A stretch of DNA of 64,000 bases, taken from positions 62,001 to 126,000 of the forward strand of contig NZ_AUEG01000004.1 in the NCBI RefSeq assembly GCF_000425865.1, read 5' to 3'. Source of the DNA: Lacticigenium naphthae DSM 19658. Its GTDB lineage: Bacteria > Bacillota > Bacilli > Lactobacillales > Carnobacteriaceae_A. Position numbers and translations under genes: made by a program. Shown one piece after another: positions 11,656-18,864 of this stretch (the stretch's first letter is position 1; every line of letters starts with the position of its first letter). The notes under the pieces are model-generated. The model was not told where the DNA came from. It saw only the letters and a program-made list of their open reading frames with translations, and did no database searches.

Positions 11656-12645
11656 CTAACGAGTTGAATAAAATTGTTTGAATATCTTGCAAATAGCTAA
11701 ATCCAGATACAGCTGCAGTGTTTCTTTATCTTGACCAGCAGATATTCTCAAATCCCATAAGCCAGATTCTAATTGTTCGTCAATAAGCCATTGCAGTCCT
11801 TTTTTGATAGTAGGCTCCTGTGGTGAAAAACCTAACAACGACAGAGAATCTAAAACCGATATCAAGTCAGAGTAACAAAATGGGTAAACAAATTGTGTCC
11901 AATATTTTTTGTCTTGTCTATCAGGATACTTGTCCCTTTTGAAAATATAAGTGCTCACTAATTCTCCTGCTTCTTTAACTTCTGGTCGTTCTCTGAATAA
12001 AGGATGGATCGAAAATGCACGCAATACAACACTAGTGACCATATAAGATGAAGGTTGGTTGATATCAGGTTCGATTGTTTCATGATAGTTGTATGTAACA
12101 TCTATATTATGATTTCTTGTTCTAAAAGGGAGTGCCCATCCACCATCGGTTTGACGATATTTTACTAACCAATCTAGTGCCCTAATGATCCGAACATCAT
12201 CTGTGTACCCTGCTTTAATGAGCATTTCAGCAATGCCTGCTGTATAATTCGGTGTGTATTGTTTATCGTATATCCCACGAAAATCTCCCTGGGCTGTTTG
12301 GACTGAAAAAAAATATTCTGCTGTTTTTTTAATTACCGCATGAGATCGATCAAGGCTATACATATCCACTAACTTTGCAAAATTACGATAGGTCTGGTAT
12401 TGATTTAAGTTATCCCTGTTCGTGTTCTCTCGGGCTTGAGGATAAATCCAGTACCCTTCCATCTGCTGTTTTTTTATGAGTTTTAGTACTTCTTTTGAGG
12501 CCCAGCATGACTCGAAATCGACTTCCTCATCGAACAAATCAGCATGAACTTTTAATTGTATACAGTTATTGTCATTCTCTAACAATGGTGGGAGCGGGTT
12601 ATAGTTTAAGGGGCGTAACCAAGTTTGATTTACTCTATCATTCAT
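11656..12645 (-). CDS. Squalene-cyclase/prenyltransferase-type QW-repeat protein (half size)
   Basis: A 329-residue protein with the alpha-barrel repeats of the squalene-hopene cyclase and protein-prenyltransferase superfamily. QW-type motifs are visible as QQMEGYW (60-66), QTAQGDF (116-122), QTDGGW (165-170) and QLESGLW (291-297). Squalene-hopene cyclases have about 630 residues and a catalytic DxDD motif; this protein is half that length and I see no DxDD, so class II cyclisation is not supported. A partner, scaffold or non-canonical cyclase role is possible. The ATG at 12645 is chosen because AGGAGG directly abuts the earlier ATG at 12651 and is six bases from the second. It converges on the class I enzyme gene. 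Confidence 0.75.
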   Translation of the reverse strand: MNDRVNQTWLRPLNYNPLPPLLENDNNCIQLKVHADLFDEEVDFESCWASKEVLKLIKKQQMEGYWIYPQARENTNRDNLNQYQTYRNFAKLVDMYSLDRSHAVIKKTAEYFFSVQTAQGDFRGIYDKQYTPNYTAGIAEMLIKAGYTDDVRIIRALDWLVKYRQTDGGWALPFRTRNHNIDVTYNYHETIEPDINQPSSYMVTSVVLRAFSIHPLFRERPEVKEAGELVSTYIFKRDKYPDRQDKKYWTQFVYPFCYSDLISVLDSLSLLGFSPQEPTIKKGLQWLIDEQLESGLWDLRISAGQDKETLQLYLDLAICKIFKQFYSTR

Positions 12646-12869
12646 AATCATCCTCCTTAAGTATTGGTTTATTTAGCGAATAATAAATCAGCCTATCATT
12701 TTGGAAATACGTAATACCATTCAATTCTACACTAAAAAAGCAGCTATTATGATAACAGATGCTTTTCTACAGTTGTTCAATTCAACATGGACGGTATCCC
12801 GACAACGATAGTACTATCTAGCTCACAGATTTTCTAACTTATTTCAAAAAAGTAATCATCTAATTTGGT

Positions 12870-13901: not shown

Positions 13902-14681
13902 CTAATCAAGATTATCTATTGCATATTGTGCTTGTTCATTATTAAAGCCTTCGTAAATAAGTTGATCGTATAATTCGCCATCCGACATGGGGGAATATTC
14001 TAAATAGTCTTTAGCTTGTTGTAAAGCAAGAGTATTCCAATTCGCTTGAATACTATCAATAGCATACTGTGCTTCATCTTCTAAAAATTCTTCATAAAGC
14101 AGTTGATCGTACAGACCTTTTTTAGAAAAAGCAGTATAATCTATATATTGTTCTGCCTGTTTCAAAGCCTGGTCTTTCCAGTTTGTTTCTATACTATCTA
14201 TAGCATACTGAGCAGCTTCCTCAGGATATTCTTCGTAGAGTAATTGGTCATATAATCCTTGCTTAGAAAAAGCAGTGTAATTTAAATATTGCTGTGCTTC
14301 TGCTAAAGCGTTGGCATGTTCCCGCGAAACTTCTTCAGTTTCATCAGCCTCTGTCACGTTCTCCTCTGGTTTTTTTTGAGATTCCTCTTCAACAACTCCG
14401 TCAGTTTTATCTTCTGCTTTTTCTGCAGTAGTATCTTTAGAGTCTTCTTCTATATCAGTTTCTGTTTCATCCTCTATATTTTCTTCTTGTTTGCCCTGTT
14501 CTGCTTCAACACCTTGTACTATTTCAGTATCATCCTTTTCCGGTTGCACTTCTTCTTCATTTCCTGTCATCGATCCTATTCCAATTGCCAGCACCACCAA
14601 CCATACCCACCATCTTTTGTAGATAGGCTTTTTCGTTTTGTATTGTTTCTCCTTTTTTACCTTAGGACTTCCTTTTTTCAT
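13902..14681 (-). CDS. Membrane-anchored protein with three Ltp-type repeats
   Basis: A 259-residue protein. A Lys/Arg-rich start is followed by one membrane segment (about residues 24-40, RWWVWLVVLAIGIGSMTG), then a highly acidic Glu/Thr-rich linker (41-125) and three tandem repeats of about 46 residues. Each repeat has the pattern ALxxAxxYLxYTAFSKxGLYDQLLYE followed by AQYAIDSI. These match the Ltp-like host cell-surface-exposed repeat family. The namesake, from Streptococcus phage TP-J34, is a superinfection-exclusion lipoprotein that blocks DNA injection; many chromosomal relatives have no tested role. No lipobox is seen, so a signal anchor is more likely than a lipoprotein. An AAGGAGG site precedes the ATG. 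Confidence 0.82.
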   Translation of the reverse strand: MKKGSPKVKKEKQYKTKKPIYKRWWVWLVVLAIGIGSMTGNEEEVQPEKDDTEIVQGVEAEQGKQEENIEDETETDIEEDSKDTTAEKAEDKTDGVVEEESQKKPEENVTEADETEEVSREHANALAEAQQYLNYTAFSKQGLYDQLLYEEYPEEAAQYAIDSIETNWKDQALKQAEQYIDYTAFSKKGLYDQLLYEEFLEDEAQYAIDSIQANWNTLALQQAKDYLEYSPMSDGELYDQLIYEGFNNEQAQYAIDNLD

Positions 14682-15041: not shown

Positions 15042-16625
15042 TTAATCTAGAATGATCGTTCTAAATTCATTGTTTTCATTTACTTCACCTTCGACTTCAT
15101 TACCAGGTTCAACAAATGGTAAATTATCGTGTAAAGTAATATCGGCTTTGTAGATGCTTCCGTCGATCATGAAGTAATAAATCGTATTGCCTGAAACAAC
15201 GGCTTGCGAAATATTTTCTACCTGCCCAGTAATTTTTGTTAAATTCTCATCGTCAACTTCTTCAATTTCTGTTTCTTCACCTTCTGCAGTGCTGCGCCCG
15301 TTTAATTGTGCGATCAGTCCGTCTACAGTATCGCTGGTGATGACTTTTTGGTAATTTTGAGCATCAACCAATGCATACGATCGAACGAGCCCTGAGTCAT
15401 CTTTTAGGGATGATATATAGTAAGGCCGTTTATTCAAACTAATCAAAAGCGGGAACGTAGATTTAAAGCGCATTTGTTGCAAGGAGCCTTCTGCTGATTC
15501 CATTGCTGAAAATTCATCTGCTGAAGTTACTGGATAAAATTCTGATTCCTTCGTCCGCATATTGACGAGATAGAACCCAATATTTGAAGCATCACTATTG
15601 ATAGATGTGACTCCAGTATATAGATAGATATCATTGTCCATAGGGATATAATTGTATCCGTCAGTTGTTTGAGTTACTCCGCGTTTTCCGAATTGTGCAT
15701 TAAAGAACCCATCACTGTATTTTCCTTTATAATTCAATTGTTGCAAGATCAAATCAGCTGAATAGACTCTATCGACCCAAGTAGGCATGTTTTCTAAATC
15801 ATACTCTTGGGTTTCACCTGTTACAGCATCCACAACGATCAATCCATTCGGTTCAAGCTGTGTAAACCAAAATTTGTTTTTATATGTGGTCGCAACATAA
15901 AAAGGATGGCCATCTTCGTCGACTTCAAAAGAAGGATCTTCAAATATTCGAGTTGGATAGTTAAAACGTAAATGACGCTTTACATTCCGATTCAGCAATT
16001 CAGAATCAGAATATTTGATATTTTCTTTCAAATCTTCAACTTCTACAGCTCCAGAAACCATGTCTACTTTTAAGTAGATTGGGATCCCTTCTTTACGGTT
16101 ACTGAACCAACGAACCAGACTCGCATAACGTAAAGGAGTAACCCGATAAGGATCATTATCGATATTGATTTGTGTATACGTTTCAGAAGGAACAAATTGA
16201 GAAACCAGTTCATTGATCGAACCAATGCGTCTGTCCCCTAGTCTTTGAGCAGTATCTCTATCCATCATTGGAATAGAAGACTCATTCATAGCAGGGAAAT
16301 CATTTTCAAAATCTTTTTCTTCTACTTGAATCAAGTCAGCATAATCATTTGCTCGAAAAAGCACACTATTAAATAAATTCCCGATACCAATTACAATGAT
16401 AGCTATTATGGGGATTATTAAAGCAGTATATTTCTTCTTTTTTTTGAAAAAATATTGTCTGTCTAAAGATATCTCTATAGCAATAACCAATAGAGTGATC
16501 AATAAAATTAGAAACCTAAATTCTCGAGAGTGAATATTGATGGCTGGTGTATATATGTAAAATACAATGAGTGTGACAATGGATAGTAAACTGTATAGCG
16601 CTAACCGTATCTTTGTGTTCGACAT
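15042..16625 (-). CDS. Conserved membrane protein of unknown function with large exported domain
   Basis: A 527-residue protein with three predicted N-terminal membrane segments (about residues 8-25, 30-50 and 62-85), followed by a long soluble region, mostly beta, that probably faces outwards. Visible blocks include DRDTAQRLGDRRIGS, YRVTPLRYASLVRWFSNRKEGIP and a C-terminal OB-like segment (KITGQVENISQAV to GNEVEGEVNENNEF). I do not recognise a named family, although similar proteins occur in other Lactobacillales. The ATG at 16625 follows AAAGGAAG on the minus strand; the longer frame from 16709 lacks such a site. It is monocistronic with its own terminator. Confidence 0.75.
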   Translation of the reverse strand: MSNTKIRLALYSLLSIVTLIVFYIYTPAINIHSREFRFLILLITLLVIAIEISLDRQYFFKKKKKYTALIIPIIAIIVIGIGNLFNSVLFRANDYADLIQVEEKDFENDFPAMNESSIPMMDRDTAQRLGDRRIGSINELVSQFVPSETYTQINIDNDPYRVTPLRYASLVRWFSNRKEGIPIYLKVDMVSGAVEVEDLKENIKYSDSELLNRNVKRHLRFNYPTRIFEDPSFEVDEDGHPFYVATTYKNKFWFTQLEPNGLIVVDAVTGETQEYDLENMPTWVDRVYSADLILQQLNYKGKYSDGFFNAQFGKRGVTQTTDGYNYIPMDNDIYLYTGVTSINSDASNIGFYLVNMRTKESEFYPVTSADEFSAMESAEGSLQQMRFKSTFPLLISLNKRPYYISSLKDDSGLVRSYALVDAQNYQKVITSDTVDGLIAQLNGRSTAEGEETEIEEVDDENLTKITGQVENISQAVVSGNTIYYFMIDGSIYKADITLHDNLPFVEPGNEVEGEVNENNEFRTIILD

Positions 16626-17057
16626 AAAATCTTCCTTTTCTTTATCATTAAGTAAACAGAGTGAACTTACTGATTTAATAATTGATACTGTTTGCCAGAT
16701 AAGAAGCATGAAAATTTAGAGGGTCCATATTCCCCTTTCCACTTTCTCCCTACCTTACTACAGTATAAACTTTTTTGAATCTAATTCAATCGTAAACTGT
16801 AGTTAATTCAGTTACAGAGCGATAATCGACTTTCTCAGCAGTCTCTTCTGTATTAAAATCCAAAAAATATTTCAATGAATAGTGCGATCATAGAATCAAC
16901 TAGATATGTTGGTTTGAATTCGTAAATGTAGTTTTAAGTGCATGGAATAAGTATATAGTTTACTAAACACTCTTTACATAAGAAAAAAATTATTTTATTC
17001 CTTTTTGTTCTTTAGTTCTATTCGCAAACATAGTAAAATGGGACTATACAAAGATCA
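16626..17057. other. Divergent intergenic region upstream of the riboswitch
   Basis: No gene is seen. It should hold the promoter for the riboswitch transcript (a TAGTAAAAT sequence near 17030 is a weak -10 candidate) and that of the divergent membrane protein gene. Nothing else stands out. Confidence 0.4.
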
Positions 17058-17142
17058 AGTCGATAAAGGCAAACCATTTGAAAAAATGAGACGCAAAACT
17101 ACAGGGGCTAACGAGTAATCTCTATGCCAGCCAGTTACCGTA
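17058..17142 (+). ncRNA. Cyclic di-GMP-I (GEMM-I) riboswitch aptamer
   Basis: The stretch has the conserved parts of a GEMM-I aptamer in order: GGCAAACC (17068-17075), a hairpin CATTT-GAAA-AAATG with a GNRA tetraloop (17075-17088), GACGCAAA (17090-17097), and a second arm with a tetraloop-receptor-like CTAAC...TATG inside GGC/GCC pairs (17106-17127), closing with GCCAGTTACCG. The G in GGCAAACC is the base that favours c-di-GMP; cGAMP-specific variants have A there. Ligand binding is expected to stabilise this fold. It precedes a terminator and then the gene at 17218. Confidence 0.87.
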
Positions 17143-17146
17143 AAAC

Positions 17147-17183
17147 AAGCAGATTCCTCTTGTTAGCGGGAATGTGCTTTTTT
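17147..17183 (+). terminator. Riboswitch expression-platform terminator
   Basis: Arms AAGCAGATTCC (17147-17157) and GGAATGTGCTT (17169-17179) with an 11-nt loop and a T-tract ending at 17183. The stretch 17151-17167 can instead pair with 17107-17121 inside the aptamer, giving an antiterminator that excludes both the aptamer arm and this stem. The predicted logic is therefore that c-di-GMP switches transcription off. Confidence 0.82.
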
Positions 17184-17217
17184 GTATAAAAAAATAGAAA
17201 GGAAGTGAATTCCCCCG

Positions 17218-17745
17218 GTGTCTTTTAAAAAAAGGTTAGCTAGTTTCCTTCTTTCTATAGGGATGGTTGCCTTTGCTGGATGCAATGATAACACAACGAC
17301 ACAACAAACTGTCGAAGTAAAACCCATTTCAATCCAGGAAGTAGATAAACCCGCGCCACTTTATGAAAACGAAGCTATAAATTTATTGGTTACACAAAGT
17401 GGAGATTGGCAAGTAGATACTGAAGCGCGTTCTTATAATCTTGAAGTTACGCTACATACTCAACAACTGCATGCGATAATTTCTACTGTTTCCACCACTC
17501 AAAATTTCGCGGGAGTCAAACAGGAACTGCTTAGTTCTGTTGGTGATGTAGAGATTCTTTCAGAAAATGACGAACAGTTTTCTTTCCAATCCAAGCTAAA
17601 AAGCCCGGTACGCACAGATGTCTTTATTAAGGAATCGAAAGACGCAAATTATCATTTGGTTATCGTATTTATGTCACCTGTTTCAGAATATGATCGCAAT
17701 CAACCGGAAATGAAAGATTTATTAAATCATATACACTTTGATTAA
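17218..17745 (+). CDS. Small lipoprotein under c-di-GMP riboswitch control
   Basis: A 175-residue protein with a lipoprotein signal peptide: a KKR start, a hydrophobic core and the lipobox AFAGC, giving an acylated Cys22 on the outer face of the membrane. The mature part (TVEVKPISIQ, then SGDWQVDTEARSYNLEVTLHT) looks like a small beta-rich domain; no family is recognised. The start is GTG with AGGAAGTG seven to eight bases upstream, beyond the riboswitch terminator. It is followed after 17 bases by the secreted protein gene at 17763, so both should share riboswitch control. A cell-surface or biofilm-related role is inferred from that control alone. Confidence 0.8.
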   Translation: MSFKKRLASFLLSIGMVAFAGCNDNTTTQQTVEVKPISIQEVDKPAPLYENEAINLLVTQSGDWQVDTEARSYNLEVTLHTQQLHAIISTVSTTQNFAGVKQELLSSVGDVEILSENDEQFSFQSKLKSPVRTDVFIKESKDANYHLVIVFMSPVSEYDRNQPEMKDLLNHIHFD

Positions 17746-17762
17746 AAAAGGAGCATACAAAA

Positions 17763-18764
17763 TTGAAAAAAACTATTTTTAGTATTGTACTAGGTACAGG
17801 ATTACTCTTAAACACTGGACAAGTATCTGCTTTAGAAACAGAAAAAAGCATCCATCCTGATTCAGAGTTATACGATACTTCTCGCGTGATGGAAGAAATC
17901 GAATACAATTTGACGGATAGCTTGTCTGATAAGGCCATACTTCAAGATCAATATGCAAGTGAACGTTTAAAAGAGTCGGAAGCTGCTCTGGAAAATGGAG
18001 ATAGTGAAACAGCTGAAGAATTATTAGAAGAAGCTCAAATAAGCACAGAAAAATCAGCGGTCGATTTAGAAGAAGCTGAGGTATCCGGTGAAGAAATAAG
18101 TGAGGAAACTGAAAAATCTTTGGCTGAAAGTTTAGCTAAAAAAATAGCTGAACTAGAACTTTTATTGACACGTGAAGATATACCGGAATCAGCAAAAATC
18201 GGAATCTCTTCTGTATTGAAGCACGTTGAAATTATTAGCAAACGCGCTGAGGAACGTATGAATTTACAAGAACAATTAGTTAATGCTGATTTGACCGAAG
18301 AAGAATACAAAAACGAAATGAAATCTTTAAACGAACAGTTTAAAGAAGAATCTGAACTAAATCGGTCTGAAGCAAAGAGTAAACGGAATGAACTGAAAAC
18401 CTTACGTAAAGAAACAAAAGAAGAACGTAAAAACAGTAAAAAACAAACCACAGTGAATTCTGATGAGACTCTTCCAATAAATGAAGAAATTCAAGAAGTT
18501 GAAAGAGAAATAGAAGAAAATGATGATTTTGAATCAACTGATAATTTTGAAGAAAAAATCAGCAAAGAATCAGAAGAATTGATTGAACATGAAGAAAAAG
18601 CAGCAGAACAAAATAAAAAACAAGCAGAAAAAGCCATTGAACGAGCAAAAAAAGAACAAGAAAAAAAAGAACGCAAAGAACAAGAAAAAGTTGAAAAAAG
18701 CAACCACAAATCTTTAGATAAAACTGAAGATCAGGAACAAGATGCTGAAGATCTAGAAGACTAA
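17763..18764 (+). CDS. Secreted Glu/Lys-rich coiled-coil protein under riboswitch control
   Basis: A 333-residue protein with a cleavable signal peptide (MKKTIFSIVLGTGLLLN, likely cut after VSALE or nearby). The N-terminal part of the mature protein (about residues 30-200) resembles DUF5667-type helical domains, with a repeated pattern of AxxxLExGDxExAEELLEEA. From about residue 200 it is almost entirely Glu, Lys, Gln, Arg and Asp in coiled-coil-like runs and has no anchor motif. The start is TTG, preceded by AAAAAAGGAGC. It lies 17 bases after the lipoprotein gene and very probably in the same transcript. An extracellular structural or scaffolding role is only a guess. Confidence 0.75.
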   Translation: MKKTIFSIVLGTGLLLNTGQVSALETEKSIHPDSELYDTSRVMEEIEYNLTDSLSDKAILQDQYASERLKESEAALENGDSETAEELLEEAQISTEKSAVDLEEAEVSGEEISEETEKSLAESLAKKIAELELLLTREDIPESAKIGISSVLKHVEIISKRAEERMNLQEQLVNADLTEEEYKNEMKSLNEQFKEESELNRSEAKSKRNELKTLRKETKEERKNSKKQTTVNSDETLPINEEIQEVEREIEENDDFESTDNFEEKISKESEELIEHEEKAAEQNKKQAEKAIERAKKEQEKKERKEQEKVEKSNHKSLDKTEDQEQDAEDLED

Positions 18765-18833: not shown

Positions 18834-18864
18834 AAAAACCCTTGTCGAATGACGAGGGTTTTTT
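18834..18864. terminator. Bidirectional terminator after the secreted protein gene
   Basis: AAAAACCCTTGTC (18834-18846) pairs with GACGAGGGTTTTT (18851-18863) around GAAT. Both sides give a T-tract. Confidence 0.82.

Follow-up and report, generated by a model that had tools for sequence, protein, structure and literature searches.

A c-di-GMP-I riboswitch with an OFF-like expression platform precedes a lipoprotein–DUF5667 operon in Lacticigenium naphthae

In Clostridioides difficile, a class I c-di-GMP riboswitch at flgB exerts transcriptional OFF control over motile-state genes (PMC11477304). Bc2 of Bacillus thuringiensis is an ON riboswitch for the anchored collagen adhesin Cap (PMC4933901). 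A further class I representative, Bc1 of the Bacillus cereus group, precedes an MCP gene, and expression of the downstream gene is unchanged by c-di-GMP in vivo (PMC11218506).

Here we describe a riboswitch of the same known kind whose target is little known and recurrent. It lies in a 64-kb stretch of the Lacticigenium naphthae DSM 19658 genome (termed the window, meaning the whole stretch of DNA that was analysed), upstream of genes for a lipoprotein and a secreted protein carrying DUF5667, a domain of unknown function. The unit shares with the flgB system its class I aptamer and, as predicted, its polarity, but flgB heads a flagellar operon rather than a gene for a secreted helical protein. 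Like Bc2/cap, the new unit has a c-di-GMP-I aptamer and a terminator before a surface-protein gene, whereas Bc2 turns on an anchored adhesin and the window's unit has an OFF layout and no LPXTG. Bc1 also combines a c-di-GMP-I aptamer with chemotaxis, and units of the window's type adjoin MCP genes in two other genomes (G020 and G021). In contrast to these, Bc1 is placed directly before the MCP gene and has a dual terminator. A Mog1/PsbP-like lipoprotein paired with a DUF5667 protein is not among the c-di-GMP-I targets named in the literature cited here.

The riboswitch and its operon

The unit comprises the following features.

17058..17142, + strand: c-di-GMP-I (GEMM-I) riboswitch aptamer, by the Rfam RF01051 covariance model
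17138..17169, + strand: predicted antiterminator hairpin, which captures the 3′ CCG of the aptamer and is common to all six loci with the riboswitch–lipoprotein–DUF5667 triple
17147..17183, + strand: intrinsic terminator, AAGCAGATTCC / GGGAATGTGCTT followed by a T run; hairpin of about -13.6 kcal/mol that excludes the antiterminator
17218..17745, + strand: lipoprotein gene (ORF), 175 aa, GTG start
17763..18764, + strand: secreted protein gene (ORF), 333 aa, TTG start
18834..18863, + strand: strong terminator closing the two-gene unit, a 13-pair stem-loop with a T tail

An earlier note on this DNA had proposed a c-di-GMP-I riboswitch before an operon for a lipoprotein and a secreted protein. 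A covariance-model search confirmed this, with the ORFs as described: RF01051 matches positions 17058-17142 of the + strand at 75.3 bits, well above the gathering score of 35 (E = 5.8e-13). The alignment covers the full model (1-87 of 87) with 2 non-canonical pairs. The core elements GGCAAACC, a GAAA-capped hairpin, GACGCAAA and the receptor-side arm are all present in this interval, and these motifs and the terminator were found where the note had placed them. GGCAAA, a GNRA-capped hairpin, GACGCAAA and the receptor-side arm form the conserved c-di-GMP-I core, and alignment shows that they are kept in the homologues, as are the stems in related genomes. By analogy with the Vc2 structure, the 3′ CC of the aptamer presumably holds the ligand-pairing cytosine.

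RF01051 is the sole RNA-family match within the window, and this is the only c-di-GMP-I match in the whole 2.13-Mb genome. A chance match is not expected to be the sole one in 2.13 Mb and also to recur in five further genomes ahead of the same two genes, which argues that the riboswitch is genuine. The aptamer precedes a gene and is equipped, ahead of position 17218, with an expression platform of terminator plus competing hairpin. It resembles known RF01051 riboswitches in sequence, structure and the presence of a terminator downstream. Judged by these features, it is an ordinary c-di-GMP-I member that is predicted to bind c-di-GMP and to affect expression.

The first gene encodes a protein with a lipoprotein signal peptide, in which a lipobox-like AFAGC spans residues 18-22 and ends in Cys22. 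Phe at -3 is unusual; G21 and C22 are invariant in seven lipoprotein homologues, most of which carry L[AV]GC. No Pfam family matched the lipoprotein up to E = 1, and a PDB sequence search returned no useful match. Its AlphaFold2 model (pLDDT 75.8 overall, about 74-93 in the core) is similar to CyanoP 2xb3 (Z 12.5, rmsd 3.2 over 125 residues), MTC28 (Z 11.9, rmsd 3.1 over 122), LpqN (Z 10.9, rmsd 3.0 over 122) and DcrB (Z 10.3, rmsd 2.9 over 101), and several Mog1/PsbP-type entries score Z > 10. The model thus predicts a Mog1/PsbP-like fold. The likeness to CyanoP, LpqN, MTC28 and DcrB is one of predicted fold, with identities of just 7-14%, and does not give the lipoprotein a function.

The 333-residue protein consists of a signal peptide, DUF5667 (residues 29-117) and a long Glu/Lys-rich helical tail; Asp, Glu, Lys and Arg make up 54% of its C-terminal 153 residues. 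The match to DUF5667 (PF18915) scores 50.9 bits against a cut-off of 27 and covers positions 1-94 of the 99 in the profile. Neither LPXTG nor any hydrophobic segment beyond the signal peptide was found in this protein. Its AlphaFold2 model is all-helical (pLDDT 70.3). When the DUF5667 model was compared with known structures by Foldseek, no match reached E <= 0.001 and the hits were helical bundles only; sequence searches yielded no useful solved homologue. The earlier note had described both proteins as having no known function. This is correct, and the Pfam entry PF18915 carries none, but the second protein is a member of a named family.

Distribution of the unit and of DUF5667 loci

The riboswitch–lipoprotein–DUF5667 triple is present in five other genomes. 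Two of them (G020 and G021) belong to the window's family and were among the close genomes in which the note had suggested looking for the same combination. One (G238) belongs to another family, in which the unit occurs in 1 of 38 genomes. P. quinghaiensis and Paraliobacillus sp. PM-2 were found from the second protein, and in both an RF01051 match is followed by a lipoprotein homologue and then a DUF5667 gene. RF01051 is rare in the window's order: among 148 relatives it occurs in exactly three genomes and the lipoprotein in the same three, with none carrying one alone. This scarcity agrees with the note's remark that c-di-GMP control is rarely discussed in lactic acid bacteria. In a class-wide draw, 211 of 399 genomes carry RF01051, and the window's genome was alone of its order among the matches listed. 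Weak lipoprotein matches (E about 1e-5 to 1e-3), mostly at the signal-peptide end, were left uncounted, and their loci served as riboswitch-free controls.

The gene neighbours of the unit vary between genomes which, together with the patchy distribution, makes transfer or repeated loss likely. A tree of the gene pair built to ask about horizontal transfer does not place the window's pair, and a tblastn search of PLSDB for plasmid carriage gave no match to the lipoprotein or the DUF5667 part. In G020 (L017, 6143-15564) and G021 (L018, 6870-15622) the unit is located just upstream of three MCP genes plus cheW and cheD, which in G021 are followed by cheB and cheR; these names come from reading the translations. 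The window's own unit does not adjoin chemotaxis genes. A further genome (G200; L023, 1468-2957) has the lipoprotein–DUF5667 pair with no detectable riboswitch, and five c-di-GMP-I riboswitches elsewhere. A hidden riboswitch before this pair was sought at a relaxed threshold and rejected.

The association of DUF5667 with c-di-GMP-I riboswitches extends beyond the triple. DUF5667 scores above cut-off in 43 of 399 Bacilli genomes, and 9 of 30 DUF5667 loci sampled across Bacilli are preceded on the same strand by a c-di-GMP-I-type riboswitch (eight RF01051 and one RF03167). The G238 locus is among the nine; in the other eight the DUF5667 gene is directly behind the riboswitch, with no lipoprotein gene between. 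None of 20 control loci, which come from the same set of genomes and for the most part cover the beginnings of unrelated genes for exported proteins, has such a riboswitch. Under simple null densities the probability of 9 in 30 is about 1e-16 or less, a null that ignores shared ancestry, although the cases span several families. RF01051 is present in 41 of the 43 DUF5667 genomes versus 211 of all 399 when the two lists are read together, a comparison confounded by ancestry. A literature search that covered few subscription journals found no paper on DUF5667 or PF18915. The link between DUF5667 and c-di-GMP-I riboswitches is our addition and appears to be undescribed in the searchable literature.

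The expression platform

The terminator stem lies entirely 3′ of the aptamer and has no base in common with it. The antiterminator is formed by pairing CCG (17138-17140) with CGG (17167-17169) and ACAAG (17145-17149) with CTTGT (17159-17163). Its CUUGU and CGG partners sit within the loop and 3′ arm of the terminator, so that the two hairpins are mutually exclusive. Alignment of the platforms from the six triples shows, in every case, a terminator together with a rival hairpin capturing the 3′ CCG of the aptamer. Furthermore, CCG, ACAAG, CTTGT and CGG are invariant in 6/6 loci, although the loop bases of a terminator need no conservation.

Across the six loci, antiterminator pairing reaches 96.7%, compared with 40-50% for slid partners, and one pair is changed on both sides. 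Covariation among these six sequences did not exceed that of column shuffles in the terminator or in the antiterminator, and support for the hairpins comes from conservation and the slid controls. When each of the six triples is taken singly, loop complementarity is modestly rarer than in shuffled loops (p 0.03-0.10). A scan for sigma-70 promoters upstream gave sites no more numerous than in shuffles, and no promoter is claimed.

Equilibrium folds of growing transcripts, calculated without ligand, give the antiterminator a probability of 0.62-1.00 once CGG has been transcribed, and it dominates in transcripts ending just past CGG. In folds of the full-length transcript this value falls to <=0.05, as the terminator takes over once its 3′ arm is complete. 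In these models, the formation of the antiterminator first and the terminator later is as expected of a kinetically controlled OFF switch. With no ligand present, too, the terminator is the stabler of the two, its advantage being about 1.7 to 10 kcal/mol, and OFF control would therefore need kinetic trapping.

Two leaders of DUF5667 genes in other families (G154 and G381) contain a separate 7-bp pairing between the aptamer 3′ end and the terminator loop. Their sequence differs from that of the window's platform, and the predicted pairing follows the same logic. This type of pairing was not found in the DUF5667 leaders of G441, G463, G251, G449, G174 and G266. Four DUF5667 leaders with c-di-GMP-I-type aptamers (L087, L099, L079 and L100) have no clear terminator. 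In L087 and L079 part of the leader could base-pair with the ribosome-binding site, which hints at control of translation.

Polarity of the switch and roles of the proteins

We consider it likely that the riboswitch controls the lipoprotein–DUF5667 operon as an OFF switch, with the pair made when c-di-GMP is low and cells are motile. When no c-di-GMP is bound, the nascent RNA would pair the 3′ CCG of the aptamer and ACAAG with CUUGU...CGG in the loop of the later terminator, and transcription would go on past the antiterminator thus formed. Binding of c-di-GMP would hold CCG in the aptamer and block the antiterminator, the terminator would form, and both genes would be off. The proteins would then serve motile cells at low c-di-GMP as surface or exported accessories. 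Because the layout of the platform is like that of an OFF switch, we infer that they are not biofilm effectors. The earlier note had suggested that they are new effectors of surface or biofilm behaviour, a reading that is probably the wrong way round.

The opposite polarity, in which c-di-GMP promotes read-through and the pair acts as a sessile-state or biofilm factor in the manner of Bc2/Cap, seems unlikely to us. A matrix role would suit long charged secreted proteins, and Bc2 provides a precedent from Bacilli: this c-di-GMP-I riboswitch, whose terminator precedes the gene of a surface adhesin, functions as an ON switch (PMC4933901). However, the terminator at 17147-17183 is wholly beyond the aptamer, which leaves ligand binding with no direct way to disrupt it, and it is the aptamer with which the conserved alternative hairpin competes. 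The Bc2 analogy was set aside because terminator and aptamer do not overlap.

We think it more improbable still that the aptamer is intact but silent or constitutive and that the promoter mainly sets expression. Such a state resembles that of Bc1, which bound c-di-GMP while its native gene was unresponsive in vivo (PMC11218506), and it would fit the dominance of the terminator in full-length folds. By analogy, the conserved Bc1 is a warning against deducing function from conservation alone. Nevertheless, the aptamer and both platform hairpins are kept with the same genes over large evolutionary distances, and DUF5667 genes recur behind c-di-GMP-I riboswitches in other families. Some GEMM-I variants, known from other bacteria, sense cGAMP. 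A preference of this aptamer for cGAMP or another cyclic dinucleotide over c-di-GMP is nonetheless very improbable given its good score with the canonical c-di-GMP-I model and the presence of GGDEF and EAL proteins in the genome.

A profile search found seven GGDEF and four EAL matches, proteins for which the note had proposed searching the genome, along with three flagellin matches and no match to PilZ. None of the three outcomes by which the note's reading would have failed (a covariance score below threshold, stems not conserved in related genomes, no diguanylate cyclase) was observed. The genome has c-di-GMP metabolism yet few recognizable receptors. The GGDEF and EAL genes are partly clustered at C1:372-391 kb. 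The surrounding region, C1:370-393 kb (L019/L020), is dense in such genes, which flank a transport and sulphur-metabolism block. Two of the proteins encoded there resemble each other and combine an incomplete EAL domain with a C-terminal region that, on inspection of the sequence, seems HDOD-like. Given seven GGDEF matches, no PilZ match and a single c-di-GMP-I riboswitch, the operon may be among very few direct c-di-GMP outputs of this organism, and it would offer a simple system for asking what role c-di-GMP has in a flagellated member of the order.

The MCP and che neighbours in G020 and G021, combined with OFF polarity, suggest a motile-state exported factor. Tentatively, this could be a charged rod, at the surface or spanning the wall, whose partner is anchored in the membrane, although we regard such a role as distinctly less likely than its alternatives taken together. 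A broader proposal is somewhat more plausible, if still short of probable: that exported helical DUF5667 proteins are a recurrent and widespread target of c-di-GMP-I riboswitches in Bacilli, are turned off by c-di-GMP, and act as motile-state surface factors, partnered in one group of loci by a Mog1/PsbP-like lipoprotein. The operon would then be the sole c-di-GMP receptor output identified so far in this flagellated, lactic-acid-bacterium-like genome, which lacks PilZ. The recurrence ties a domain of unknown function to c-di-GMP signalling across several families of Bacilli, with a polarity that is testable.

Three other genes of the window lie on the - strand. Positions 11656-12651 encode a protein of 331 aa in which a squalene-hopene-cyclase C-terminal-like domain (PF13243) occurs without a full cyclase, and 15042-16709 a membrane protein of 555 aa whose extracytoplasmic portion is long and which matches no curated family. 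The protein encoded at 13902-14681 is membrane-anchored and contains the Ltp repeat (PF07553, ‘host cell surface-exposed lipoprotein’) three times; proteins of this family are known from the exclusion of superinfecting phages.
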